A stretch of 64,000 nt of DNA from Actinoallomurus soli (GTDB lineage: Bacteria; Actinomycetota; Actinomycetes; Streptosporangiales; Streptosporangiaceae). Shown here piece by piece: positions 7,989 to 40,234 of this stretch (its first letter is position 1; each line of letters begins with the position of its first letter). The stretch covers positions 124,001 through 188,000 of the forward strand of contig NZ_JAMXMV010000013.1 in the NCBI RefSeq assembly GCF_024055715.1. The letters run 5' to 3'. Under the pieces are notes generated by a model, which did not search any database, was not told the origin of the DNA, and was given only the letters and a program-made list of their open reading frames with translations. The position numbers and the translations under genes were made by a program.

Positions 7989-9113
7989 TCATCGGGACGG
8001 CGCCCCGCCGGTTCGCAGGTGGGCCAGGCCGGTGCGGGTGCCGGTGACGTCCTCGCCGGTGGCGGCGATGGTGTCTTCCAGGCGCGCTCCGGCGCGTACG
8101 GTCGCTCCGGGCAGGATCACGGACCGGTCGATTTCGGCGCCGGGTTCGATGACGCAGCCGGGGAACAGCAGGCTGGAGCGGACGGACGCGCCGGGCGGGA
8201 CCGTGACGTCCGTGCCGGTGAGGCTTTCGTGCTCGGGGCGGTAGCGCGGGGCCGTGGCGGCGAGGGTCCGCGGGAGGGTTTCGGGCGGGAGCGGGAACGG
8301 CCGGTCGAGGAGTTTGAGCTGTTCGAGGTGGTAGCGCTCGACGGTGCCGATGTCGGCCCAGTATCCGGTGATCGGGTGGGCCAGGACGCGCCGGCCTTCG
8401 CGGATCATGAGCGGGAGGACGTCGCGGCTGATGTCGTGCTGCCAGCCGTCGTCGCCGAGTGCGGCCAGTGAGGTGAGGACCTCCTCCAGGACGTCGGCCT
8501 TGAAGAGGCAGAAGGCGGTGAAGACCAGGTCGGAGGTCGGCTCGGCGGGCTTTTCGACGAGGCGGCGTACGCGCAGGTCGTCGTCGACGTCGACCATGCC
8601 GAACAGGTGCACGAAGCGTCGTTCGATGCGCTGGACGCCGATGGTGACGTCGGCGTCGGCGGCGCGGTGCGCGGCGGTCATGGGCCCGTAGTCGTGGACG
8701 TAGACGTGGTCGGCGTGCTGGATGAGGACGTCGCGGGCACCGGGCGCGAACAGGTACTCGGCGTTGCCCAGGAGGGCGTCGGCGGTGCCGGATTCGGGGG
8801 GCCGCGGGGGCAGGGTCTCCCCCGCGGTGAGGGCGCCGGAGCGGATGAGCCGGTCGTGGGGGCCGAAGTTGATGCGCACTCCCCTGCCGTCCCAGTGGGT
8901 GAGGAGGTGGTCGATGAGGTCGCGTTCGCGGTGGAGGGACAGCAGGACGATCTCGGGGACGCCGGAGCGGGCGGCGTTGGCGACGCTGAAGTCGACGAGG
9001 CGGCAGGAGGCGGCGTACGGGACGAGGGGTTTGCAGAGGGTGTCGGTGAGGTGGCCCATGCGTTCGCCGAGGCCGCCGGCGAGCAGTGCCGCGCGTACGT
9101 CGGGCAGGGTCAT
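7989..9113 (-). CDS. GlgC-like sugar/cyclitol-phosphate nucleotidyltransferase (VldB/ValB-type candidate)
   Basis: A 374-residue nucleotidyltransferase. The N-terminal Rossmann-like domain has the signature LLAGGLGERMGHLTDTLCKP and continues RLVDFSVANAARSG and GTADALLGNAEYLF, as in ADP-glucose pyrophosphorylases. GYWADIGTVERYH and a C-terminal left-handed beta-helix (hexapeptide-like repeats, about residues 290-360) complete the GlgC plan. A bona fide glgC lies at 38999, so this copy is likely specialised. It is the last gene of the operon with the cyclase and the kinase-isomerase fusion. In validamycin biosynthesis a GlgC-like enzyme activates valienol 1-phosphate as the NDP donor for the pseudoglycosyltransferase, and the same role is inferred here. 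GGAGG precedes the ATG. Confidence 0.75.
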   Translation of the reverse strand: MTLPDVRAALLAGGLGERMGHLTDTLCKPLVPYAASCRLVDFSVANAARSGVPEIVLLSLHRERDLIDHLLTHWDGRGVRINFGPHDRLIRSGALTAGETLPPRPPESGTADALLGNAEYLFAPGARDVLIQHADHVYVHDYGPMTAAHRAADADVTIGVQRIERRFVHLFGMVDVDDDLRVRRLVEKPAEPTSDLVFTAFCLFKADVLEEVLTSLAALGDDGWQHDISRDVLPLMIREGRRVLAHPITGYWADIGTVERYHLEQLKLLDRPFPLPPETLPRTLAATAPRYRPEHESLTGTDVTVPPGASVRSSLLFPGCVIEPGAEIDRSVILPGATVRAGARLEDTIAATGEDVTGTRTGLAHLRTGGAPSR

Positions 9114-9132
9114 CGGGTCCTCCTGCGGGTGG

Positions 9133-11115
9133 TCACCAGGTGCGGCCCTGCGGGGCGTGCTGTGGGAGCAGGTCGCGCAGGAGCCGGGTCGAGACGTGGA
9201 CGCTCTGTTCGCGGGGCAGGAGCGCGTCTTCGTGTTCGACGTACAGGACGCCGTGGAAGTCCTCGTCGAGGAGCGCGGCGACGATGGCGGGCCAGGGCAG
9301 GTCGCCGGCGCCGAGGGCGCGGAAGCGGATGGCGGGTCCGGGGCCGTAGCGGGACCAGCCGGTGCCGGTCGGTGGGTGGGCGGTGGTGTGGCGCTGGAGG
9401 TCTTTGGCGTGTGCGGCGCCGAGGTCGGTGCCCCAGCCGCGTACGGCGTCGACGGGGTCGTGGCCGGTGGCGGCGAGGTTGGCGGGGTCGAGGCAGATCT
9501 GCACGGTGGCGCGGGGTTCGGTGCGGGCGGCGGCGTCGAGGAGCCGGCGGGTGCTGGTGCGGTCGTAGGCGACCTGTTTGGGGTGGGGTTCGATGAGGAG
9601 GGTGATGCCGTGTTCGGCGGCGAGGGTGAGGATGGGGTGGGCGTGTTCGCACCAGGCGGTGATGTTGTCGTCCCAGGTGACGGTGCTGTGCCACCAGGAC
9701 AGCCAGCGGGTGAGGTCGGGGACGCCGAGCATGAGGCGGGCGTGGGGTGCGCCGAGGTCGGCGGCGAGGCGGATGGTGTCCTGGGCGTGGCGGAGGGCGT
9801 GGTCGTGTTTGGCCTGGGGGGTGCCGTGCAGGACGGGGTCGGTGTGGGGGCCGTGGGGGCCGAGGAGGAGCTGGGTGTCGCGGCTGTTGGAGACGCAGCC
9901 GACGGTGACGCCGGTGAGGGCGGTGCGCAGGTCGGCGCGGTAGTCGGGGTCGTGTGACCAGCGGGTGAGGTCGAGTAGCCCGGTGGTGGTGTCGGTGGGC
10001 AGGTCGACGGTGTGGACGCCGATGTGGGTGGCGTGCTGGAGGGCGGTGGTGAGGTCGGTGCCGCCCCAGGCGGCGAGGCACAGGCCGATGGTGATCTGGG
10101 GGTCGCCGGTGCGGGGGTGCGGTGGTGGCGGTTGTGGGGTGCGGTGTGGTGGCGGGTCGAGGTCGATGAGCCAGGTGGCGGTGCCGGCGGGGCCGTCGGG
10201 TGGGCGGGGTGGTCCGTCGCTGAGGGTGTGGTGCAGTGCGGCGTGGACGGTGGCGACGGGTTCGGTGACGGGGATGACGTGGCCGGCGTCGAGTTCGGTG
10301 CGGAGTCTGCGGTCGAGTTCGGTGCGGAGCGGGGGGCATTCGCGGAGCACTCCCCCGCCGGCGGCGACGGTGAGGGGGCCGGTGAGTCCGGCGCGGTCGC
10401 GGGCGGCGCGGACGCCGAGGACGAGTTCGTCGAGGGCCGCGGTGATGAGGGCGGTGGCGACCTCGTCGCCGTCGAGCCAGGCGGCGGTGACTGCGGGGGC
10501 GAGGGCGGCGATGGCGGCTTTGGGGAAGGCGGTGGCGGCGAGGCGGCGGGCGAGTTCGGCGGGGGTGTGGCCGTGGGCGGCGGTGAGGCGGGCGCCGATG
10601 GTGGTGGCCGGTCCCCTGCCGTCGTCGGCGCGTACGGCGGCGCGGAGTCCGGCGATGCCGAGGTCGTAGGCGCTGCCTTCGTCGCTGCCGAGGTATTCGC
10701 AGCCGCCGGTGCGGGCGAGGCGGGGGTGGTCGCCGGCGGCGATGAAGCCGGTTCCGGTGCCGCAGACGAGGGCGACGCCGCGGCCGCCCAGGGGTGGGGC
10801 GACGAGCCAGGGCAGGGCGTCGTTGGACAGGAGGAGGTGGCCGCGCAGGCCGGCGTCGCGGGCGAGGCGGCGCAGGCGGTCGGGTTCGGTGCCGGGGTCG
10901 GTGAGGTCGACGGTGGCGGTGGCGAGCCATCCTGTCGCGGGTGCTCCGTCGAGGGATCGGGCGATGTCGTGGAGGAGGGTGCGCAGGGTCCGGTCGGCGG
11001 TGTCGGGGCCGGTGGAGGCGGGGTTGATCGGGCCGTAGGTGGTGATGGCGTGGGTGCCGGGGTGGATCGCCGTGGTGGTGGTGCCGCCGGCGTCGGCGGC
11101 CCACAGTGCCGTCAT
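9133..11115 (-). CDS. Fusion protein: BadF/BadG-type kinase + sugar-phosphate isomerase/epimerase TIM barrel
   Basis: 660 residues in two parts. Residues 1 to about 300 form an ASKHA kinase of the BadF/N-acetylglucosamine-kinase type: WAADAGGTTTTAI (phosphate 1), ALVCGTGTGFIAAG (phosphate 2), CEYLGSDEGSAYDLG and AGGGVLRECPPLR (adenosine motif). A Pro/His-rich linker follows (about 305-340). Residues 345-650 form a xylose-isomerase-like TIM barrel with metal-ligand candidates Glu in LLIEPHPKQ, Asp in CLDPANLAATGHD, His in GAAHAKDLQ and Glu in YVEHEDALL. The start ATG 11115 overlaps the cyclase stop by 4 bp. A cyclitol kinase and a cyclitol epimerase are both needed in C7-cyclitol pathways, where they are separate proteins with an unrelated (VOC-type) epimerase. 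One polypeptide carrying both is unusual. The role is inferred from context. Confidence 0.72.
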   Translation of the reverse strand: MTALWAADAGGTTTTAIHPGTHAITTYGPINPASTGPDTADRTLRTLLHDIARSLDGAPATGWLATATVDLTDPGTEPDRLRRLARDAGLRGHLLLSNDALPWLVAPPLGGRGVALVCGTGTGFIAAGDHPRLARTGGCEYLGSDEGSAYDLGIAGLRAAVRADDGRGPATTIGARLTAAHGHTPAELARRLAATAFPKAAIAALAPAVTAAWLDGDEVATALITAALDELVLGVRAARDRAGLTGPLTVAAGGGVLRECPPLRTELDRRLRTELDAGHVIPVTEPVATVHAALHHTLSDGPPRPPDGPAGTATWLIDLDPPPHRTPQPPPPHPRTGDPQITIGLCLAAWGGTDLTTALQHATHIGVHTVDLPTDTTTGLLDLTRWSHDPDYRADLRTALTGVTVGCVSNSRDTQLLLGPHGPHTDPVLHGTPQAKHDHALRHAQDTIRLAADLGAPHARLMLGVPDLTRWLSWWHSTVTWDDNITAWCEHAHPILTLAAEHGITLLIEPHPKQVAYDRTSTRRLLDAAARTEPRATVQICLDPANLAATGHDPVDAVRGWGTDLGAAHAKDLQRHTTAHPPTGTGWSRYGPGPAIRFRALGAGDLPWPAIVAALLDEDFHGVLYVEHEDALLPREQSVHVSTRLLRDLLPQHAPQGRTW

Positions 11116-12287
11116 GGGCGGCCTGCCGGGAGGTCGTCGGCGGTGGTGCGCAGGAGGGCGGCGCGGACCTCGTCTTCGGTGACGTCGTCGACGATGAGGG
11201 TGGTGCCGAGTTCGAGCGGGAGGACGAAGCGGAGGCTGCCGTCGCGGATCTGGCGGATCTTCCCGAGTGCGGCGAGGACGTCGTCGATGGGGGGCTCGGC
11301 GCGGAGCTGGTGGAGGCGTACGGGGAGGTTCAGGGCGGTGAGGAGGTGGGTGATGCGGTCGGCGGTGGCGGGGTCGAGGAGGCCGCGGGCGCGGGAGATG
11401 TCGGCGGCGATGACCATGCCGTAGGCGACGGCCTCGCCGTGCAGGACGGGGCCGTATCCGGTGGTGGTCTCGACGGCGTGGCCGACGGTGTGGCCGAAGT
11501 TGAGGGGGCGGCGCAGGTCGTTCTCGTAGGGGTCGCGGCCGACGAGCTGGGATTTGATGGCGCCGGCGGCGCGGACGAGGGTTTCGGTGGCGGGGAGGCG
11601 GTGGTGGAGGAGGTCGTCGGCGTGGGTCTCGATGAAGTCGAAGTACTCCGGGGAGGCGATGACGGCTTTTTTGACGGCTTCGGCGAGGCCGGCGCTGGTC
11701 TGCCTGGTGTCGAGGGTGTCTAGGTGGGTGAGGCAGGAGATGACGGCGCGTGGCTGGTGGAAGGCTCCGACGAGGTTCTTGGCGGAGTTGTGGTCGACGG
11801 CGACCTTGCCGCCGATGGCGGCGTCGACCTGGGCGAGGAGGGTGGTGGGGACGTTGATGTAGGGGACGCCGCGCATGTAGGCGCTGGCGACCCAGCCGAC
11901 GGTGTCGATGATCATGCCGCCGCCGAGGGCGATGATGACGTCGCGGCGGGCGAGGTCGAGTTGGGAGAGCCAGTCGAGGAGGAGGTAGGCGGTGTCGAGG
12001 GTCTTGCTGCGCTCCCCCGGTGGGACGGCGATGGTGCCGAGGAGCAGTCCGTGCTGCTGGAGGGTGCGGGTGAGGTCGTCGTAGGGCGGCAGGGCGGCGA
12101 CGGTGCGTTCGGTGATGACGGCGGCGCGGCGGCCGTCGAGTTCGTCGAGGATCGCCTGGAGGGCCTTGTGCGGATCCGCTGTGACGTGGATGCGGTAGGT
12201 GTCCTGGCGTTCGTGGGTGACCTGGAGGGCCGACGGGGTCGTGGAGAGAGGGATGCGGTCACGAACGATATGCCCGTTTACGGCCAT
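11112..12287 (-). CDS. Sugar phosphate cyclase (dehydroquinate synthase / EEVS superfamily)
   Basis: 391 residues with the full sugar-phosphate-cyclase plan: ALGGGMIIDTVGWVASAYMR (NAD+ binding), VPTTLLAQVDAAIGGKVAVD, KNLVGAFHQP, GLAEAVKKAVIAS, LNFGHTVGHAVE and VLHGEAVAYGM (zinc His ligands). These enzymes cyclise C7 sugar phosphates (DAHP in AroB, sedoheptulose 7-phosphate in 2-epi-5-epi-valiolone synthase). The neighbours are those of a C7N-aminocyclitol pathway, which predicts an EEVS. Yet the second motif reads GHTVGHA as in dehydroquinate synthase, whereas the valiolone synthases I recall have GHTFSP and KTGVN/KNRLG. Class is therefore uncertain. It is the first gene of the minus-strand operon; AGGAAGG stands just before the ATG. 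Confidence 0.8.
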   Translation of the reverse strand: MAVNGHIVRDRIPLSTTPSALQVTHERQDTYRIHVTADPHKALQAILDELDGRRAAVITERTVAALPPYDDLTRTLQQHGLLLGTIAVPPGERSKTLDTAYLLLDWLSQLDLARRDVIIALGGGMIIDTVGWVASAYMRGVPYINVPTTLLAQVDAAIGGKVAVDHNSAKNLVGAFHQPRAVISCLTHLDTLDTRQTSAGLAEAVKKAVIASPEYFDFIETHADDLLHHRLPATETLVRAAGAIKSQLVGRDPYENDLRRPLNFGHTVGHAVETTTGYGPVLHGEAVAYGMVIAADISRARGLLDPATADRITHLLTALNLPVRLHQLRAEPPIDDVLAALGKIRQIRDGSLRFVLPLELGTTLIVDDVTEDEVRAALLRTTADDLPAGRP

Positions 12288-12483
12288 CTTCCTTCCTTAC
12301 TTAGATCGACCAAATGTGTCGGAGGTACCCTCATGGGGCGCACGATAACCTTTTGATGGCTGTGTTTGGCAAACGTCAGATTTGTCAATGATGTGAGCTG
12401 ATGCGCAGATCTGATGGCGCCGGGTGCGCCGGCCGGCCAGGCCTCGAGAGGAACGCCACGCGCGGCGCGCGGGAGGTCCCGGG
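12288..12483. promoter_or_regulatory. Divergent promoter region of the cyclitol cluster
   Basis: 196 bp between the cyclase gene (left) and the reductase gene (right), clearly more AT-rich than its surroundings between 12297 and 12415. For the leftward operon a TTGCCA (12372-12367, minus) lies 18 bp from TTATCG (12348-12343). A TTGACA is also present at 12388-12383. A rightward promoter must be here too, but I see no convincing pair. No clear palindrome was found. Confidence 0.35.
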
Positions 12484-13419
12484 GTGCTGACGATGGTCGT
12501 GGGAAGCGGTTACCTCGGCGGGCACATCGGCGCGCGGATCCGCGCGCTCGGCGGTGAGGCGGTCCTGTGCTCCCGGCGGCCGCCGGCGGCGCGGTCCGCC
12601 GCGGGCCTGCGGTGGTGCGAGCTCGACGTGCGCGACCCGCGGGCGTGCCGGGATCTGGTGCGCCGCGTGGCGCCGGACTCCCTCGTCCTCGTGCACGGCC
12701 CGTCCGACATCACCTGGTGCGAGCGGCATCCGGACGAGGCGATGGCCGCGCACGGCGCGGGCGCGGTGAACCTGGCGGCCGCCGCCGGGGGGCTGCCGAT
12801 GCTGCTGATCTCGACGGACAACGTCTTCCCCGGGGCCCGGGACAGTTACGGCGAGTCCGACGAGGTCGCGCCCGCCAACGCCTACGGCCGGGCGAAGCTG
12901 GCGGCCGAGCGGACGCTGCTGGACACCGGGTCGGCGCTGGTGCTGCGGGTCAGCCTGGTCTACGGCTGGGATCCCGACGGGCACCGCCCCAACTACTTCA
13001 CGACGTGCGTGCGGGCGCTGCGCGCGGGACGCGTGGTGGAGGCCCCGGAGGACCACTGGAACACCCCGGTGCTGGTCGACGATGTCGCCGCCTGGTCGGC
13101 GGAGCTGGTCCGGACGCGGCGGACCGGAGTGCTGCACCTGGCCGGGCCCGAGCGGCTGTCGCGGTACGCGTGGGCGCGCCGGATCGCCGCGGGCCTGGGC
13201 CTGCCGGAGGGCCTGGTCCGTCCCGTCGCGCAGGCGGGCACGGCGTACGCGTGCCGGCCGCGGAACGCCTGCCTGCACAGTGAGCAGGCGGCGGGCCTGC
13301 CGGAGCTGGCCGGTCTGTGGCCGGTCGATGTGGACGAGGGCGCCCGGCGCCTGGCCCCGGTGGCGTTCGCCGCCGGTGGGCCTCCTGTCGTCCCCGCCCC
13401 CCGACCCGTGAAGGAGTGA
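12484..13419 (+). CDS. Extended-SDR NAD(P)-dependent reductase/epimerase (RmlD-like)
   Basis: A 311-residue extended short-chain dehydrogenase. VVGSGYLGGHIGARIRAL is the N-terminal nucleotide-binding GxGxxG, LISTDNVFPGARDSYGESD carries the catalytic Ser/Thr and AYGRAKLAAERTLL the catalytic YxxxK. PVLVDDVAAW and HLAGPERLSRYAWARRIAAG follow, as in dTDP-4-dehydrorhamnose reductases. The GTG start at 12484 has GGGAGG 7-8 nt upstream; longer in-frame starts lack a site. It opens the plus-strand operon, with only 3 bp to the pseudoglycosyltransferase gene. A likely role is reduction of a keto-cyclitol, inferred from its position. Confidence 0.78.
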   Translation: MLTMVVGSGYLGGHIGARIRALGGEAVLCSRRPPAARSAAGLRWCELDVRDPRACRDLVRRVAPDSLVLVHGPSDITWCERHPDEAMAAHGAGAVNLAAAAGGLPMLLISTDNVFPGARDSYGESDEVAPANAYGRAKLAAERTLLDTGSALVLRVSLVYGWDPDGHRPNYFTTCVRALRAGRVVEAPEDHWNTPVLVDDVAAWSAELVRTRRTGVLHLAGPERLSRYAWARRIAAGLGLPEGLVRPVAQAGTAYACRPRNACLHSEQAAGLPELAGLWPVDVDEGARRLAPVAFAAGGPPVVPAPRPVKE

Positions 13420-13422
13420 GAG

Positions 13423-14847
13423 TTGAGCAAGCGGGTGTTCCTCGCCAGCAAGCGCGCGGTCGTCACTTACGCGCCCGATCCGGAGACCGGGGCGTTGCGC
13501 GCGTGGCTGGCGCCCGGCGGGACCGGGAACGTGGTCGCCGAGCAGGCCGGGTACCTGGACGTGGCGTGGATCGTGAGCGCGGACAGTGACGCGGACCATC
13601 GTGCGGCGCTGGAGAATCCCGAGGGGATGCGGATCGAGCTGCCGTCGGGGCGCGGGGTGCGGCTGCACCAGTTGCGGCACGACCGTGAGACGTTCCGTGT
13701 GGTGCAGGACTTCTTCACCGCCGAGCTGATGTGGGCGGGCAACAACTACGGCTGGGACCGGTGGACGCGGCCGTCGTTCGGGGCGGAGACCCGGGCGGCG
13801 TGGGAGCGGTTCGGGGAGTTCACCGAGGACTTCGCCGGGGAGCTGCTGCGGCGTTCGGAGGGTGAGCCGGATCCGGTGTTCCTCGTCCACGATTACCAGT
13901 TGGTGCGGGTGCCGCAGCGGCTGCGGGCGGGGCGGCCGGACGCGCCGATCCTGTTGTTCGTGCACATCCCCTGGCCGTCCGCGGACTACTGGCGGATCCT
14001 GCCGAAGGAGGTACGGACGGGTGTGCTGGAGGGGATGCTGGCGGCCGACGTGATCGGGTTCTTCGCGCGCCGATGGTCGGCGAACTTCCTGGCGTGCGTG
14101 GCCGACCTGCTGCCCGACGCCGAGGTCGACGCGGCCGCCGGCACCGTACGGCGGGGCGGGCACGTGACGCGGGTGTGCACGCAGCCGCTGGGGTACAGTC
14201 CCGAGACGCTGCACCGCCGGGACGCGCGGCTGCCCGGCGGGATCGCCGAGTGGGCCGGTGACCGGCCGCTGGTGGTGCATTCGGGCCGCACCGATCCGAT
14301 CAAGAACGCCGAGCGCGCCGTACGGGCGTTCGTCCTGGCGGTGGAGGCGAACGAGCGGCTGCGCGGGACGCGGATGCTGGTGCGGATGAACCCGAACCGG
14401 CTGTACGTGGAGGCCAACGACGCCTACCGGCGGCGGGTGGAGGCGGCGGTGGCCGAGGCGAACGCGAAGCTGGGCGCGGACACCGTGCGGACGCACTGCG
14501 ACAACGACGTCGGTCACACGTTCGGGTGTTTCGAGCGCGCGGACCTGCTGGTGTTCAACTCCACGGTGGACGGCCAGAACCTGAGCGTGTTCGAGGCGCC
14601 GCTGGTGAACGAGCGGGACGCCGACGTGGTCCTGTCGGAGATGGCGGGCGCGGCGGAGATCCTGGGGCCGGTGTGCCGGACGGTGAACCCCTTCGATCTG
14701 GCCGAACAGGCCGAGGCGATCGCGGCGGGGCTGCTGGCCGGGCCGGCCGAGCGGGCGGAGGCGGCGCGGCGGCGGCGGGACACGGCGCGGCCGTGGACGC
14801 TGGAGGCGTGGGTGACCGCGCAGCTCACGAGCCTGGGCGCGGCCTGA
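13423..14847 (+). CDS. Pseudoglycosyltransferase of the VldE/ValL type (GT20, trehalose-6-phosphate synthase homologue)
   Basis: 474 residues, full GT20 length. FLVHDYQLVRVPQRLRAG and LLFVHIPWPSADYWRILPKE correspond to the OtsA motifs holding the catalytic Asp and His. VVHSGRTDPIKNAERAVRAF replaces the OtsA GRLDYTKGI segment but keeps Arg and Lys. NSTVDGQNLSVFEAPLVN holds the nucleotide-sugar Asp and Glu. The N terminus (VFLASKRAVVTY ... LAPGGTGNVVAEQAG) and these variant motifs match VldE/ValL as I recall them rather than OtsA. VldE joins GDP-valienol to validamine 7-phosphate through a non-glycosidic C-N bond. The start is TTG 13423, with AAGGAG 6 nt upstream. This gene is the strongest evidence for the nature of the cluster. 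Confidence 0.85.
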   Translation: MSKRVFLASKRAVVTYAPDPETGALRAWLAPGGTGNVVAEQAGYLDVAWIVSADSDADHRAALENPEGMRIELPSGRGVRLHQLRHDRETFRVVQDFFTAELMWAGNNYGWDRWTRPSFGAETRAAWERFGEFTEDFAGELLRRSEGEPDPVFLVHDYQLVRVPQRLRAGRPDAPILLFVHIPWPSADYWRILPKEVRTGVLEGMLAADVIGFFARRWSANFLACVADLLPDAEVDAAAGTVRRGGHVTRVCTQPLGYSPETLHRRDARLPGGIAEWAGDRPLVVHSGRTDPIKNAERAVRAFVLAVEANERLRGTRMLVRMNPNRLYVEANDAYRRRVEAAVAEANAKLGADTVRTHCDNDVGHTFGCFERADLLVFNSTVDGQNLSVFEAPLVNERDADVVLSEMAGAAEILGPVCRTVNPFDLAEQAEAIAAGLLAGPAERAEAARRRRDTARPWTLEAWVTAQLTSLGAA

Positions 14848-16115
14848 TGGGCGCCGATGCCGGCGCGCAGGCGTTCGCGTACTACGAGCTGGGCGATGTC
14901 CGGCTGGTGCACGGTGAGGGCGTGCGGGTCTGGGACGAGAACGGCCGGGAGTACCTGGACTGCGTGGCCGGGACGTTCAACCTGGTGCTGGGGCACAACC
15001 ATCCGGCGGTGCTGGCGGCGGTGCGGGGTCAGCTGGAGGACCTGGTGTTCGCCAGTTCGTCGTTCCGCACCGAGCCGACCGACCGGGTGATGGAGCTGCT
15101 GGTGGAGCTGAGCCCGCCGGGGCTGACGCGGGTGAATCTGCGCAGCTCGGGCGGGTCGACGGCGAACGAGGGCGCCATCAAGATCGCTCAGTGGGTGACG
15201 GGGCGGCGGGACGTGATCGTGCCGTTCCGGGGGCATCTGGGGCAGAGCATGGCCACGGCCAGTTACAACGGGACGTCGCGGATGCGGGCTCCGTTCCCGT
15301 ACCACCTGCCGGGTGCGGTGCACGTCCCGGACCCGTACTGTTTCCGGTGTTTCTACCGGCAGACGCCGGACCGGTGCGGGATGTGGTGCGTGGACCGCAT
15401 CGAGGACTTCCTCACCTATGCCAGCTCCGGCAGCGTCGCCGCGATGATCATCGAGCCGATCAGCGGGGTGGGCGGGAACGTCGTCCCTCCCCCGGGCTAC
15501 CTGCGGCGGCTGCGGGAGTTCTGCGATGAGCGCGGCATCATCCTGATCTTCGATGAGAACCAGACGGGCCTGGGGCGTACGGGCCGGCTGTTCGCGGCCG
15601 AGCATTTCGGTGTCGAGCCGCACATCATGACGGTGTCGAAGGGGCTGACGGGCAGCGGCCTGCCGCTGGCCGCGATCCTCACCGAGGAGCGCCTGGTCGG
15701 GATGCCGCGTTCGATGCACGGGTTCACCTACGGCAGTCACACGCTGTCGGCGGCGGCCGCGGTCGTGACGCTGCAGGAGGTGCGCCGGCCGGAGTTCCTC
15801 GCCGGGGTGCGCGCGTCGGGCGGTGTGCTGCTCGAGCGGCTGCGGGCGCTGCGCTCGGACTTCCCGTGCGTCGGGGACGTGCGCGGTGTGGGGCTGATGC
15901 TGGGCGTGGAGCTGGTCGAGCCGGACGGGGCCCGCTCCCCCAGGCTGGCCACCGCGCTGAACAAGGCCCTGTACGACCGGTCGGTGATCACGCGGGTGTC
16001 GGAGCACGGCCTGGGCAACGTGATCGAGTTGCGGCCGCCGCTGGTGCTGTCGGTGGAGGACGCCGGCCTGATCGCCGACCGGTTCGGTGAGGCGCTGGAG
16101 ACGCTGCGGACGTGA
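14847..16115 (+). CDS. Class III PLP-dependent aminotransferase (cyclitol amination candidate)
   Basis: A 422-residue fold-type I class III aminotransferase. GREYLDCVAGTFNLVLGHNH opens the large domain, RSSGGSTANEGAIKIAQW binds the cofactor phosphate, IIEPISGVGG and IFDENQTGLGRTG hold the PLP-ring Asp, and MTVSKGLTGSGLPLA carries the Schiff-base Lys. A Cys-rich insert (YCFRCFYRQTPDRCGMWC) sits mid-protein, as in several class III members. The ATG overlaps the stop of the preceding gene by one base. In this cluster it should install the amine of the acceptor cyclitol (validamine-like). The specific substrate is inferred from context. Confidence 0.82.
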   Translation: MGADAGAQAFAYYELGDVRLVHGEGVRVWDENGREYLDCVAGTFNLVLGHNHPAVLAAVRGQLEDLVFASSSFRTEPTDRVMELLVELSPPGLTRVNLRSSGGSTANEGAIKIAQWVTGRRDVIVPFRGHLGQSMATASYNGTSRMRAPFPYHLPGAVHVPDPYCFRCFYRQTPDRCGMWCVDRIEDFLTYASSGSVAAMIIEPISGVGGNVVPPPGYLRRLREFCDERGIILIFDENQTGLGRTGRLFAAEHFGVEPHIMTVSKGLTGSGLPLAAILTEERLVGMPRSMHGFTYGSHTLSAAAAVVTLQEVRRPEFLAGVRASGGVLLERLRALRSDFPCVGDVRGVGLMLGVELVEPDGARSPRLATALNKALYDRSVITRVSEHGLGNVIELRPPLVLSVEDAGLIADRFGEALETLRT

Positions 16116-17185
16116 GCGCGGTCCCGGGAACAGGCCCGGCGGCGCCGGGTCCGCTGAGCGTGGAACTGACGGGGTCGGGGCCGCGGCTGTCGCGGGCCCG
16201 GCCCCGCCGCCCGGACGGCGCGGAGACGGTCCTGGTCGAGCCCCTGGTCGTCGGGGTCTGCCGCTCGGACCTGAAGGAGATCGCCGGGCGGCGGCCGGGG
16301 CCGAGCCAGTTCGGTCACGAGCTGGTCGGGGTCGTCGCGCGCAGTTCGACGCCGCGGCTGCCGGTGGGCGCGCGGGTCTGCCTGGACCCGAACGTGCCCG
16401 TCGCGCGGGGACCCGGGTTCGCGCGCGCCATGTGGGTGGGCGGGGACGCCGACGCGCTGACGCGGGCGCTGCCGCTGGCGCCCGCCGGGGTCGTCGAACG
16501 CCGTCTGGTGTTCGCCGAGCCGCTGGCGTGCGCGGCGCACTGCCTGACCATGACGCGGCGGCACCGGGGCGGCGCCGGCCTGCGGGGCGCGTCGGTGTGC
16601 GTGCTGGGCGCGGGGACGGCGGGTGTCTTCATCGCCCGGCTGGCCGAGGCCGGCGGCGCCCGCGTCCTGCTGGCGAACCGGGACGCCGACCGGCTCGCGT
16701 TCCTGGCGGCGCGGCGGATGCTGCCCGGGGGCGGCGGCGTGCCGCTGTCCGAGTCCCCCGGGGCGGCCGGGCCGGTGAAGGGGACGGCCGGGGGGCACGA
16801 CGTCGTGGTCATCGCCACGAGCTTCGTGCTGCCGGAGCTGCTGGAGCACGCGCTGCGGCTGGTCCGCCCGGGCGGGCTGGTGATGCTGTACGGGGGTACG
16901 GCCGCCGGTGACCGGCTGCCCGGCCTGGACTGCGACCTGGACCGGGTACGGCGCGGGGAGCGGGTGGAGGCGGTGTCGTGGCGGGGCCGGCCGGTGCGGG
17001 TGGGCGGGAGTTACGGTACGACGCCCGAGGATTTCACGGTGGCGTTGCGCGCCCTGTCGGAGCTTCCGGACGGGCTCGGCGTGGAGCGGCTGATCACGGC
17101 GGAGGTGCCGTTGCGGGAGCTGCCGGCGGTCCTGCGCCGTCTCGCCGCCGGGCGGTGCTTCGGGAAGGTGCTGGCGCGTCCCTGA
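16112..17185 (+). CDS. Medium-chain (zinc-type) alcohol dehydrogenase-like protein
   Basis: A 357-residue MDR protein. GVCRSDLKEIAG and FGHELVGVV hold the usual catalytic-zinc Cys and His-Glu. VFAEPLACAAHCL supplies the Glu before the nucleotide domain, and VCVLGAGTAGVFIARLAEAG is the Rossmann motif. The four-Cys structural-zinc loop is absent: the segment reads LDPNVPVARGPGFARAMW. Such dehydrogenases act in cyclitol pathways on the ring hydroxyl or ketone. The GTG start overlaps the previous stop (GTGA), so four genes in a row are translationally coupled. It ends the plus-strand operon and converges on the HAD gene. Confidence 0.75.
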   Translation: MSAVPGTGPAAPGPLSVELTGSGPRLSRARPRRPDGAETVLVEPLVVGVCRSDLKEIAGRRPGPSQFGHELVGVVARSSTPRLPVGARVCLDPNVPVARGPGFARAMWVGGDADALTRALPLAPAGVVERRLVFAEPLACAAHCLTMTRRHRGGAGLRGASVCVLGAGTAGVFIARLAEAGGARVLLANRDADRLAFLAARRMLPGGGGVPLSESPGAAGPVKGTAGGHDVVVIATSFVLPELLEHALRLVRPGGLVMLYGGTAAGDRLPGLDCDLDRVRRGERVEAVSWRGRPVRVGGSYGTTPEDFTVALRALSELPDGLGVERLITAEVPLRELPAVLRRLAAGRCFGKVLARP

Positions 17186-17282
17186 CCGCCCGGCCGGCCC
17201 GGTGGCCGCCCTCCATGACCAGGCGCGGCGGCCGGGGCCGGTGGCGTACCGGTTCGTGGCGGCCAGGCGGGACCGGGACCGG

Positions 17283-17972
17283 TCAGCGGGCCAGCCGCAG
17301 GACCGCGGCCAGGCCCCGGGCCGTGTCGGCGGACCGTTCGCTGGGCAGCAGGTAGACGGGCAGGCCGGCGCGTACGGCCGCGCCGTCCTTGACGGGGTCG
17401 TCGCCGACGTACAGGACCCGCCCGGCAGGGGCGCCCAGGCGTTCGCAGGCCAGGGTGAACAGCGCGGGGTCGGGTTTGGCGATGCCGTGCTCGCAGGACA
17501 GCACCACGGTGTGCAGGGTGTCGAGGGCGCCGGCGCGGGCGAACGCCGGGCGGATGTCCCAGCCGATGTTGCTGAGCACTCCGGTGCGGACGCCGCGGTC
17601 CCGCAGGGCGCGCAGCACCGGGACGGTGTCGGGGTAGGGCCGCCAGGCGTGCGGGTCGGTCAGGCAGGCGTAGACCGCCTCGACGAGCGGGGGCTCGAAC
17701 GGGCCGGCGTCGGCGATCAGCGTGGTCCAGGTCGTGCGGTGGGCCTGCGGTGACAGGTCGCATCCTTCGCGGGCTGCGAAGCCCTCGGGCGAGTCGACGT
17801 GGCGCAGGGTCCGCCGGATCACGTCGGCGGCCGTCGCCGGGTCGAGGCGTACGCCGTGGCGGGCGGCGGCCGCGGTGAGGGAGGCCGGGTCCAGTACCCC
17901 GGTGTCGTCGAACAGGGTGCCGGAGAAGTCGAACAGAACGGCTTCGACACGGGCGTCGGCGAGATCATCCAC
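17283..17972 (-). CDS. HAD-family phosphatase with DxSGT motif
   Basis: A 229-residue HAD hydrolase. Motif I is VLFDFSGTLFDD, with the nucleophile Asp present but the second Asp replaced by Ser. Motif II is GVLSNIGWD, the motif III Lys is in HGIAKPDPALF and motif IV is VLYVGDDPVKDG. A cap domain of about 80 residues lies between I and II. The second Asp normally acts as general acid, so the Ser variant may change rate or specificity. It is 32 bp downstream of the MFS gene, and the two likely share a transcript. A phosphatase is needed to release the 7'-phosphate after pseudoglycosyl transfer, which is the inferred role. Start: GTG 17972. Confidence 0.75.
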   Translation of the reverse strand: MDDLADARVEAVLFDFSGTLFDDTGVLDPASLTAAAARHGVRLDPATAADVIRRTLRHVDSPEGFAAREGCDLSPQAHRTTWTTLIADAGPFEPPLVEAVYACLTDPHAWRPYPDTVPVLRALRDRGVRTGVLSNIGWDIRPAFARAGALDTLHTVVLSCEHGIAKPDPALFTLACERLGAPAGRVLYVGDDPVKDGAAVRAGLPVYLLPSERSADTARGLAAVLRLAR

Positions 17973-18004
17973 GGCGCCAGCATAGGGCGGTGGGCGCGGT
18001 GGGG

Positions 18005-19213
18005 TCAGGCGTCGGCGTGGTCGGGGGCCGGGTGCGCGGCCGCCGGGGCGGTGAACCCGCTGAGGCGCAGCAGCGGCGGCGTGAGGGCCGTCAGGGCCGC
18101 GGCCAGGGCGGCGACCGCGACCATGGCGCCGCGCAGGCCGGTGGCGTCGGCCCACAGGCCGACGTAGACCGGGCCGAGGAGGAAGCCCATGTAGGAGACG
18201 GTGCCGACGATCGACGTGGCGCGGCCCCGGTAGGCCTCCTCGACGTTGCGGGACACGACGCCCAGGAGGGTGGGGAACAGGACGGCGGTCCCGGCACCGC
18301 CCAGGACGAGCCCGACGGCGGCGGTGAGCAGGTTCGGGGAGGCCGCGATGACCAGCGCTCCGAGCGCGGCGGTGACGGCGCCGCCGAGCAGGACGGTCCG
18401 GGCGTGGGCGTCGCCGAGCCCGCCCAGGGAGAACCGGGTGATGGCGACGGTCCCGGCGAAGACGGCGGGGGCGACCGTGGTGAGCCACGCCCCGGCGTGC
18501 AGTTCGTCCTGGGCGAAGACCGCGCTCCAGCTCTGGTGGGCGTTCTCGCTGGCGAACGCGAGCGTGCCCAGCACCCCGATGAGCAGCAGGGGAAGAAGCC
18601 GTGACCGGGTGACCACGGCCGGTCCCGGCGCTGTGGACCGTTCCTCGGCGCCGTCGGCGGCGGCGCCTGCGGTGTCGGTGGCGCCTGCCGGCAGGGCGAT
18701 GAACAGGGCCGCGCCGGCGGCGACGGACAGGGCGGCGACGGCGGCGAAGGGCACGGCGAGCGGCCAGGACGCGGCGGAGGCGGCGCCGGTGGCCAGGCTG
18801 GTGAGGACGACCAGGGCGGAGAAGGTTCCGTGGGCGCGGGTGATGACGGGCCGTCCGGCGGTCTTCTCGGCCCGGCCCGCGACCGCGTTCATGGCCACGT
18901 CGGCCGCGCCGCTGGAGGCGCCCGCGACGGCGAGGCCGACGCACAGGGAGGGCAGGTCGACCGCGGTGAGGGCCAGGGCGGCGCCGACGAGGCCGAGCAG
19001 GGCGATGACGGCGGCGGAGACCCGCAGTCCCCAGCGGTCGAGCGCCCGGCCGATGAGCATCATGGCCGGCAGGGCGCCGGCGCCGACGAACAGCAGGGCG
19101 AAGCCGAGCTCACCGTCGGTGACTCCGGCCTGGTCCTGGACCCGGGGCACCGACGCGCCCCAGACCCCCCAGAACGAGCCGAACGCGGCGAATGCCGTGA
19201 ACGCGGAGAGCAC
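18005..19213 (-). CDS. MFS transporter, probable exporter of the cluster product
   Basis: A 402-residue, about 12-helix major facilitator. The N-terminal helix AFTAFAAFGSFWGVWGASV, the loop GRALDRWGLRVSAA (cytoplasmic signature between helices 2 and 3) and a large central loop with TDTAGAAADGAEERS divide two six-helix halves. The annotated GTG at 19213 has no ribosome-binding site. AAGGAG (19245-19240) stands 5 nt before an in-frame ATT at 19234, which would give the natural-looking N terminus MTSPRSLVLSAF. Initiation at ATT is rare but possible. It is co-oriented with, and just upstream of, the HAD phosphatase, so export of the dephosphorylated product is inferred. Confidence 0.78.
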   Translation of the reverse strand: MLSAFTAFAAFGSFWGVWGASVPRVQDQAGVTDGELGFALLFVGAGALPAMMLIGRALDRWGLRVSAAVIALLGLVGAALALTAVDLPSLCVGLAVAGASSGAADVAMNAVAGRAEKTAGRPVITRAHGTFSALVVLTSLATGAASAASWPLAVPFAAVAALSVAAGAALFIALPAGATDTAGAAADGAEERSTAPGPAVVTRSRLLPLLLIGVLGTLAFASENAHQSWSAVFAQDELHAGAWLTTVAPAVFAGTVAITRFSLGGLGDAHARTVLLGGAVTAALGALVIAASPNLLTAAVGLVLGGAGTAVLFPTLLGVVSRNVEEAYRGRATSIVGTVSYMGFLLGPVYVGLWADATGLRGAMVAVAALAAALTALTPPLLRLSGFTAPAAAHPAPDHADA

Positions 19214-38998: not shown

Positions 38999-40234
38999 AT
39001 GGCGAGACCTCATGTCCTGGCGATGGTGCTGGCGGGCGGGGAGGGCAAGCGGCTGATGCCGCTGACGGCCGACAGGGCCAAGCCCGCGGTGCCCTTCGGC
39101 GGAATGTACCGGCTGATCGACTTCGTGCTGTCCAACCTGGCGAACGCCGGCTACCTCAAGATCGTGGTGCTGACGCAGTACAAGAACCACAGCCTGGACC
39201 GGCACGTGTCTCGTACGTGGCGGATGTCGACGCTGCTGGGGAACTACGTGACGCCCGTGCCCGCCCAGCAGCGGCTGGGGCCGCGGTGGTTCGCCGGCTC
39301 GGCCGACGCGATCCTGCAGAACCTCAACCTGATCGAGGACGAGCGGCCCGACCATGTGATCGTCTTCGGCGCCGACCACATCTACCGCATGGACCCGCGG
39401 CAGATGGTCGAGCAGCACATCGAGTCCGGCGCAGGAGTCACGATCGCCGCCATCCGCCAGCCGCTGTCCCTCGCCGACCAGTTCGGGGTGATCGAGACGG
39501 ACCCCGACGGCGTCGGTGTCGCGGCCTTCCGGGAGAAGCCCAAGGACGCGGTGGGCCTGCCGGACGCACCCGACCAGGTCTACGCCTCCATGGGCAACTA
39601 CGTCTTCGACACCAAGGTCCTCGTCGACGTGGTCAAGGAGGACGCCGCCGACCTGTCCAGCAAGCACGACGTCGGCGGGAACATCATCCCCAAGCTCGTC
39701 AAGGCCGGCCGCGCGCAGGTCTACGACTTCGCCGACAACCAGGTGCCCGGCTCCACCGACCGTGACCGCGGGTACTGGCGCGACGTGGGGACCCTGGACG
39801 CCTTCTACGAGGCGCACATGGACCTGATCTCCATCCACCCGGTGTTCAACCTGTACAACCAGGAGTGGCCGATCTACACCGGTCACGACCCGCTGCCGCC
39901 GGCCAAGTTCGTGTTCAACGAGGAGGGGCGGCGCGGGTACGCCGTCGACTCGATGGTCTCCCCCGGCGTCATCGTCGCCGGCGGGGTGGCCGAGAGCTCC
40001 ATCCTGTCCCCCGGCGTCCACATCGAGGCGGGCGCCTCCGTGCACGGCTCGGTCCTGATGGACTGCGTACGGGTCGGGCGCGGCGCCGTCGTCCGGAACG
40101 CCATCATCGACAAGAACGTCGTCATCCCCGACGGCGCCCGGATCGGCGTCGATGAGGACTACGACCGGCAGCACTTCACCGTCACCGCGAGCGGCGTACG
40201 GGTCCTGGGCAAGAACCAGATCGTGCCGGGCTGA
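38999..40234 (+). CDS. glgC: Glucose-1-phosphate adenylyltransferase
   Basis: 411 residues, normal length. The N-terminal [20 protein letters not shown] is the nucleotidyltransferase and allosteric signature. [62 protein letters not shown] (substrate Lys) and [18 protein letters not shown] follow, and a C-terminal left-handed beta-helix spans about residues 300-405. It makes ADP-glucose for GlgA, encoded divergently. Its stop is one base from that of the convergent FMN reductase gene. It differs clearly from the GlgC-like gene at 7989. Confidence 0.93.

Follow-up and report, generated by a model that had tools for sequence, protein, structure and literature searches.

A predicted validoxylamine-type gene cluster with a 2-epi-valiolone synthase-like cyclase in Actinoallomurus soli and its relation to the validamycin cluster

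Genes of the Actinoallomurus soli locus

We analysed a stretch of 64,000 nucleotides from the 9.42 Mb assembly of an Actinoallomurus genome, that of A. soli (contig NZ_JAMXMV010000013.1, positions 124,001 to 188,000; hereafter the window), in which nine open reading frames (ORFs) at 7989-19213 are arranged as two divergent operons and a minus-strand tail. The central gene encodes a GT20 pseudoglycosyltransferase of the VldE/ValL type. Taken as a whole, the locus is explained with good confidence as a validoxylamine-type pathway fed by a 2-epi-valiolone synthase (EVS), and the validamycin cluster as a chimera built on the same family. The gene block recurs at 24 other VldE loci, whole or, where contigs end, partial, and this recurrence is far above chance. 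The genes are as follows.

7989..9113, minus strand: GlgC-like cyclitol nucleotidyltransferase with a predicted ValB role (NTP_transferase Pfam family; cluster-specific clade)
9133..11115, minus strand: BadF/NagK-like kinase (N half) fused to a xylose-isomerase-like TIM-barrel isomerase/epimerase (C half) (BcrAD_BadFG and AP_endonuc_2)
11112..12287, minus strand: sugar phosphate cyclase, predicted EVS type (clade and active-site residues)
12424..13419, plus strand: RmlD-like reductase, ValK orthologue (Pfam; 59% identical to the validamycin-cluster copy)
13423..14847, plus strand: GT20 pseudoglycosyltransferase, VldE/ValL orthologue (bit scores, tree and contact residues)
14847..16115, plus strand: class III aminotransferase, ValM orthologue (Pfam; 71% identical to the validamycin-cluster copy)
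16112..17185, plus strand: MDR cyclitol dehydrogenase/reductase, ValN orthologue (Pfam; 54% identical to the validamycin-cluster copy)
17283..17972, minus strand: HAD phosphatase, homologue of the validamycin-cluster HAD protein, which is taken as ValO (Pfam; about 70-72% identity)
18005..19213, minus strand: MFS transporter, probable exporter (Pfam; 32% identical to the validamycin-cluster MFS)

The nine-gene inventory of the preliminary description was recovered in full with essentially unchanged coordinates, and its gene names agree with the Pfam families of the proteins (NTP_transferase, DHQ_synthase, RmlD-type reductase, Glyco_transf_20, class III aminotransferase, MDR, HAD and MFS). The aminotransferase start was corrected to 14847, and the best reading of the HAD gene is 17283-17972. 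The genes are tightly coupled: the VldE stop and the aminotransferase start share TGATG near 14847, and overlaps were found between the aminotransferase and MDR genes at 16112 and between the cyclase and kinase-isomerase genes at 11112-11115.

Identity of the coupling enzyme, the cyclase and the kinase-isomerase fusion

Using phmmer, the GT20 protein scored 714.5 bits against the VldE chains versus 146 bits against the best OtsA-annotated chain, and it is 70% identical to VldE. A tree of 33 rows united the 27 VldE rows, that of the window included, in a clade with 100/100 support, apart from six OtsA-type rows; three of the latter are other GT20 proteins from the host genome. L044 (frameshifts in VldE) and L111 (a near-copy of the Actinosynnema cluster) were left out of this tree. 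The 21 positions that contact GDP or the cyclitol in the VldE crystal structure, as given in PMC3441724, are all identical in the window protein. Among 28 VldE sequences, 19 of the 21 are invariant, while D362 is D or E and T366 is T or S. Judged by its sequence, the protein is a VldE/ValL orthologue, and C-N coupling activity is predicted for it. The VldE-like identity proposed in the preliminary description was thus upheld by a phylogeny against both OtsA and VldE, in which the protein groups with VldE.

The cyclase was placed in a 96-row tree, made by a quick method with SH-aLRT support only and with long-branch warnings. The 26 cluster cyclases, together with a second copy from locus L112, formed a clade (99) standing beside the dehydroquinate synthase (DHQS)/AroB group (95), with the 2-epi-5-epi-valiolone synthase (EEVS)/DDGS side across a split supported at 100. 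In the active-site numbering of the Aspergillus enzyme, the DHQS-type residues K250, N268 and H275 are kept in 26 of 26 cluster cyclases, with M, D and P at these positions in 11 of 11 EEVS, and R264 is kept in all cluster cyclases except one with Q (25/26). The EEVS fingerprint is missing from all 26, and I-R stands in every one of them where the D-K of the DKK motif stands in 30 of 30 DHQS rows. From these residues and the tree, the window cyclase belongs to neither the AroB/DHQS nor the EEVS class.

The clade takes in the cluster cyclase of Actinosynnema mirum (genome G811, taken as this species; locus L107). Four cyclase matches were found in G811, one of them in the like cluster L107 at 2.216 Mb, which by proportion corresponds to about gene 1927 of 7174, and the other three at 3.87, 5.02 and 6.25 Mb. 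Since these three lie too far away, the cluster cyclase alone fits Amir_2000, and from its position it is presumed to be this enzyme. Amir_2000 of A. mirum was reportedly characterised by Asamizu in 2012 as an EVS. PMC5133447 describes a clade of confirmed EVS that would pass for DHQS and whose final metabolites were uncharacterised in 2016. Because of the A. mirum member of its clade and this DHQS-like EVS clade, the window cyclase is most likely an EVS that converts sedoheptulose 7-phosphate to 2-epi-valiolone.

The PDB relatives of the kinase-isomerase include N-acetylmuramate/GlcNAc kinase and ketoglucal hydratase. In its TIM-barrel half, E184, D218, H244 and E302 are invariant in 21 homologues and may form the metal site. 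The AlphaFold model of this half (mean pLDDT 86.1) was compared by Foldseek with solved structures only; the first match was a Streptomyces protein of unknown function, the second the ketoglucal hydratase AtHYD (8ro4), and the next were the isomerase Art22 and enzymes of the D-tagatose 3-epimerase type. A single frame encodes both kinase and isomerase in 11 distinct loci (Actinoallomurus, Umezawaea, Saccharothrix and Actinosynnema), and separate frames encode them in 13 (Streptomycetaceae, Allokutzneria and metagenome-assembled genomes), a division that follows the two halves of the cyclase tree. L041 and L044 were counted as separate genes though their kinase frames hold early stops, and L038 was left out of the kinase alignment. 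By analogy with acarbose, in which the 7-kinase AcbM is followed by the 2-epimerase AcbO (PMC7081202 and PMC6599336), we propose that the fusion combines a cyclitol 7-kinase with a C2-epimerase.

Other identities of these three proteins have to be weighed. Membership of the GT20 family would also suit an OtsA trehalose 6-phosphate synthase locus, but this reading can be virtually discounted: it is refuted by the tree, in which the protein groups apart from OtsA, and the base-contact residues are of VldE type, with R321, N323, N325, D360, N361, Q385 and S388 differing in all six OtsA-type rows. OtsA identity was rejected on bit scores, clade and contact residues together. For the cyclase, several points weigh against an EVS. 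It passes the NCBIfam aroB model (320.6, cut-off 305), among PDB entries it matches DHQS best (225 bits versus 156 for ValA), and K250, R264, N268 and H275 are kept, so that another substrate is possible; the EVS label itself comes from the A. mirum genome match and a locus tag rather than from alignment with a characterised sequence. A duplicated DHQS, or a cyclase with another product, would lead the cluster to a different stereoisomer of the pseudo-disaccharide. We consider this quite improbable, as the host has a separate AroB (L006) that falls inside the AroB clade while the cluster cyclase falls outside it, as the D-K pair has been lost throughout the cluster cyclases, and as a confirmed EVS would itself pass for DHQS according to PMC5133447. 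Plain AroB identity was therefore rejected from the separate clade and the loss of D-K, and the NCBIfam score alone would mislead. The TIM-barrel half raises more doubt. Its nearest annotated relative is the hydratase 8ro4 and the AsbF dehydratase is among the 50 fold matches listed, which suggests that it may be a dehydratase, with C2 epimerisation done by another enzyme or not needed; in acarbose, dehydration is done by AcbL (PMC7081202), so enzyme roles do shift between pathways. This possibility carries some weight but is not the one we favour, because ketose 3-epimerases make up most of the other matches among the 50 listed and because acarbose biosynthesis likewise proceeds from a kinase to a 2-epimerase.

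Predicted pathway and comparison with the validamycin cluster

In the predicted pathway, the 2-epi-valiolone made by the cyclase from sedoheptulose 7-phosphate would be phosphorylated at O7 by the kinase half and epimerised at C2, which adjoins the C1 ketone, by the TIM-barrel half. Dehydration, for which the MDR enzyme, the RmlD-like reductase and the TIM barrel are candidates, would give valienone 7-phosphate. Reduction and transamination would then yield validamine 7-phosphate, as in validamycin, while reduction to valienol 7-phosphate and the action of a housekeeping phosphomutase would yield valienol 1-phosphate, which the nucleotidyltransferase would activate to GDP-valienol. The VldE orthologue would couple GDP-valienol with validamine 7-phosphate with retention, and the HAD enzyme would dephosphorylate the product to validoxylamine A. 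C5 is the sole position at which 2-epi-valiolone and 2-epi-5-epi-valiolone differ, and it is sp2 in valienone. Because dehydration erases this stereocentre, front ends starting from either compound would be interchangeable and meet at valienone 7-phosphate, and the same valKLMN genes and VldE contacts after both front ends suggest that the same intermediate should be delivered.

The validamycin cluster was compared through locus L042 (with L169/L170; genome G804) of S. hygroscopicus NBRC 13472, whose VldE begins with the PDB VldE sequence and whose cyclase scores 732 bits against ValA (4p53). Its genes valABCD and valKLMN are named in PMC3424136. The plus-strand operon of the window corresponds to valK-L-M-N in the same order, with 59, 70, 71 and 54% identity, and both clusters have VldE, a HAD phosphatase, a GlgC-like nucleotidyltransferase and a divergent cyclase operon. 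The front ends differ. Validamycin has the EEVS ValA, to which the window cyclase is 35% identical and from which it is separated by the tree split; a ROK kinase, ValC, and a VOC epimerase, ValD, where the window has a BadF kinase and a TIM barrel; and a ValB that is 48% identical to the window nucleotidyltransferase and falls in another clade. The latter enzyme is of the NTP_transferase family, far below the GlgC equivalog cut-off, and lies within a 22-member cluster-specific clade (97/97) that leaves ValB outside. The real difference from validamycin is, on sequence, the front end (cyclase, kinase and epimerase candidate). The preliminary description had stated that both gene order and components differ; the order in fact agrees in valKLMN and in the divergent cyclase operon, and the difference holds for the front-end components.

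Neither the window nor the stretches fetched for the 24 non-validamycin loci (up to about 10 kb on each side) contained a match to ValC or ValD at E<=1e-3. ValG likewise had no match at E<=1e-3 in the 64-kb window or in those stretches, bearing out the earlier remark that a ValG-like glucosyltransferase is lacking. The lack of ValG suggests that the pathway stops at validoxylamine A, and the product is likely to be unglucosylated validoxylamine A. Of the 24 loci, 11 have a HAD homologue within the stretch fetched, and all of these except L038 belong to the group with the fused kinase. A close match of the window MFS was found only in Actinoallomurus spadix (90%), and other MFS proteins (29-35% identical) in 18 of the 24, mostly just upstream of the reductase. 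ORFs located between the MDR and HAD genes at 7 loci were matched only in the same or sister strains, besides a few weak matches of 32-45% elsewhere.

Trees of the back-end genes placed the validamycin cluster inside the family. L042 was closest to L045 and then to L040 in valK, VldE and valM, and to L040 and then to L045 in valN; L045 and L040 both carry an EVS-type cyclase, the kinase and the TIM barrel. The VldE tree gave (L040,(L045,L042)) with 100/100 and 100/99, though bootstrap was not fully settled. The valK tree, rooted by L112, gave the same forks with 96/95 and 99/97, and a basal position of L042 was rejected (p-AU 0.016, approximately unbiased test); L041 (valK in three pieces) was left out of this tree, and L111 of the trees generally. 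The unrooted tree of concatenated KLMN, with the 23 taxa that hold all four genes, again gave (L040,(L045,L042)) with 100/100 at both forks. The L042 nucleotidyltransferase is 45-51% identical to all others, which are at least 60% identical among themselves, and joining ValB with L040 and L045 was rejected (p-AU 7e-37). As KLMN nests inside the EVS-type clusters and ValB stands outside, the simplest reading is that valKLMN was kept and the front end replaced. These trees are best explained by a chimeric validamycin cluster, in which the family's valKLMN back end is combined with a replaced valABCD front end. A valABCD donor was sought in 20 ValA-like stretches and 4 more in VldE genomes; these contain relatives of ValA, in some cases accompanied by one of ValD or ValC, and no valABCD-like operon was seen among them.

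Several observations weigh against this account of the pathway and the chimera. In 13 of the 24 non-validamycin loci, among them L040 and L045, the stretch fetched showed no HAD homologue; the final step is thus not constant across the family. The L042 HAD protein is nearest to that of the window (70%) and does not follow L040 and L045, which a simple two-part chimera does not explain, and the chimera claim rests on one validamycin-cluster genome. Together with the long VldE outgroup branch (4.11 changes per column), the latter points would favour validamycin as the original, with the others having gained a new front end, or a fast divergence of valB, valA, valC and valD. We regard such an origin as unlikely, since L042 is sister to L045 in the valK, VldE and concatenated KLMN trees with strong support and its basal position was rejected for valK; that ValC and ValD are unmatched in the 24 loci further argues for replacement rather than divergence. 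An unlinked enzyme could also glycosylate or otherwise modify the end product, which would then not be free validoxylamine A. The ValG search, which covered the window and the fetched stretches, leaves room for this and yielded no ValG match in either, so that decoration appears possible but clearly the less probable outcome. Going beyond replacement of the front end, it is somewhat more probable than its opposite that the EVS-fed route is the common and ancestral route to validoxylamine among actinomycetes, that validamycin arose from it by exchange of valABCD and gain of ValG, and that the fusion is a new bifunctional enzyme.

Occurrence of the cluster family, other systems and neighbouring genes

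A contig scan with two short peptide patterns detected 25 VldE loci; the scan was not exhaustive, as the A. mirum copy escaped it and came to light in a whole-genome search. Among named organisms, A. spadix has the closest VldE relative (L021, 96%), and a VldE-type GT20 protein is present in 6 of 8 Actinoallomurus genomes, that of the window counted. A cluster-type cyclase is visible within 19 of the 25 loci. By whole-genome search, from which L026, L021 and L023 were left out, it is present in 21 of 22 VldE-locus genomes at 55-74% identity, the exception being the validamycin-cluster genome G804; all other matches were at most 43% identical except a second copy of 54% in G787. Of 26 genomes searched for the TIM barrel, 23 gave strong matches (from about 390 bits upwards), G804 and G394 gave only weak partial matches and G400 gave none; the two Actinoallomurus genomes that yielded no close VldE are G394 and G400. 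Among 394 genomes sampled from the class, a close VldE was found in the window's own genome only, and five others had GT20 relatives of 33-35%. Among 396 genomes sampled from the phylum, the cyclase was found at E<=1e-75 in the window's own genome only. The EVS-type cluster family is thinly spread.

According to PMC12041759, VldE homologues cluster with valA-like cyclases and always with a transaminase. A transaminase is present wherever the contig extends past VldE, and the statement on valA-like cyclases would need refinement, the cyclases here being of predicted EVS type.

EVS, VldE and validamycin were each known already, and the window cluster is a variant. The 2012 EVS paper reportedly already predicted aminocyclitol use. 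The EVS cluster of A. mirum (L107) has a cyclase 66% identical to that of the window and the same gene set, including VldE and the fused kinase-isomerase, but its HAD gene lies about 2 kb away and its MFS gene stands between cyclase and reductase; no product of this cluster was found in the literature searched. The literature searched, with most subscription papers outside it, likewise contained no description of EVS-fed VldE clusters as the majority or of an exchanged validamycin front end. Acarbose of Actinoplanes sp. SE50/110, compared by published descriptions, has the same logic of cyclase, 7-kinase, 2-epimerase and GlgC-like nucleotidyltransferase; none of the fetched stretches was identified as an acarbose cluster. 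It differs in that AcbC makes 2-epi-5-epi-valiolone, AcbM is a ROK-like kinase, AcbS is a pseudoglycosyltransferase of GT5 type (PMC9200736) where that of the window is GT20, and the acceptor carries 4-amino-4,6-dideoxyglucose. In the Ebo operon, as described in PMC5133447, the cyclase EboD likewise stands next to a xylose-isomerase-like TIM-barrel protein, EboE, but a UbiA prenyltransferase is present and VldE is not among the six genes.

With the present assignment, EVS, whose metabolites were uncharacterised according to the same paper, would gain a concrete pathway joined to the VldE coupling step. The predicted compound would be a trehalase inhibitor and a crop-antifungal precursor, produced by actinomycetes of several families. 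The comparison would also offer a case of modular pathway evolution, in which one operon was exchanged and the other inherited, and the stereochemistry offers a simple reason why the exchange was workable.

Eight ORFs flanking the cluster were scanned, of which five have families (MDR, RibD_C, Usp, response regulator and aldo/keto reductase) and three have none, and none of the eight is an obvious pathway member. A promoter/terminator scan of 12200-12500 found nothing. Over the minus-strand operon (8001-12000), the plus strand has a strongly positive GC skew of 0.29-0.35, and no other 2-kb block in the window exceeds 0.175. A second GlgC-like gene of the window (39002-40105, plus strand), 32% identical to the cluster nucleotidyltransferase, is probably housekeeping.

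Further loci were noted. In an Allokutzneria and a Streptomyces strain (L117, 10041-11240; L118, 10636-11838), the EVS-type cyclase shares a contig with VldE but is located at a distance from it; next to this cyclase stands a second gene resembling class III aminotransferases (31-33%), which may mark an additional tailoring branch. The relative L112 (G787:C50, 8880-15690) has the second EVS-like cyclase (54%), an RmlD-like reductase (44%), a BadF kinase (43%) and an MFS (38%), with no VldE match in its 20-kb stretch; by its gene content it may be a related cluster with another product. The host genome has a second cyclitol-like locus (G000:C5, about 8389-12952; L007 and L113), where an 807-aa frame has two matches to cyclases, one of them weak and the other 40% identical to ValA; next come a ROK-like kinase, 34% identical to ValC, and an MDR protein (32%). 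In the validamycin-cluster genome, contig G804:C59 (L104 and L177) holds a second ValB-like nucleotidyltransferase, 50% identical to the window enzyme and about 6 kb from another cyclase.

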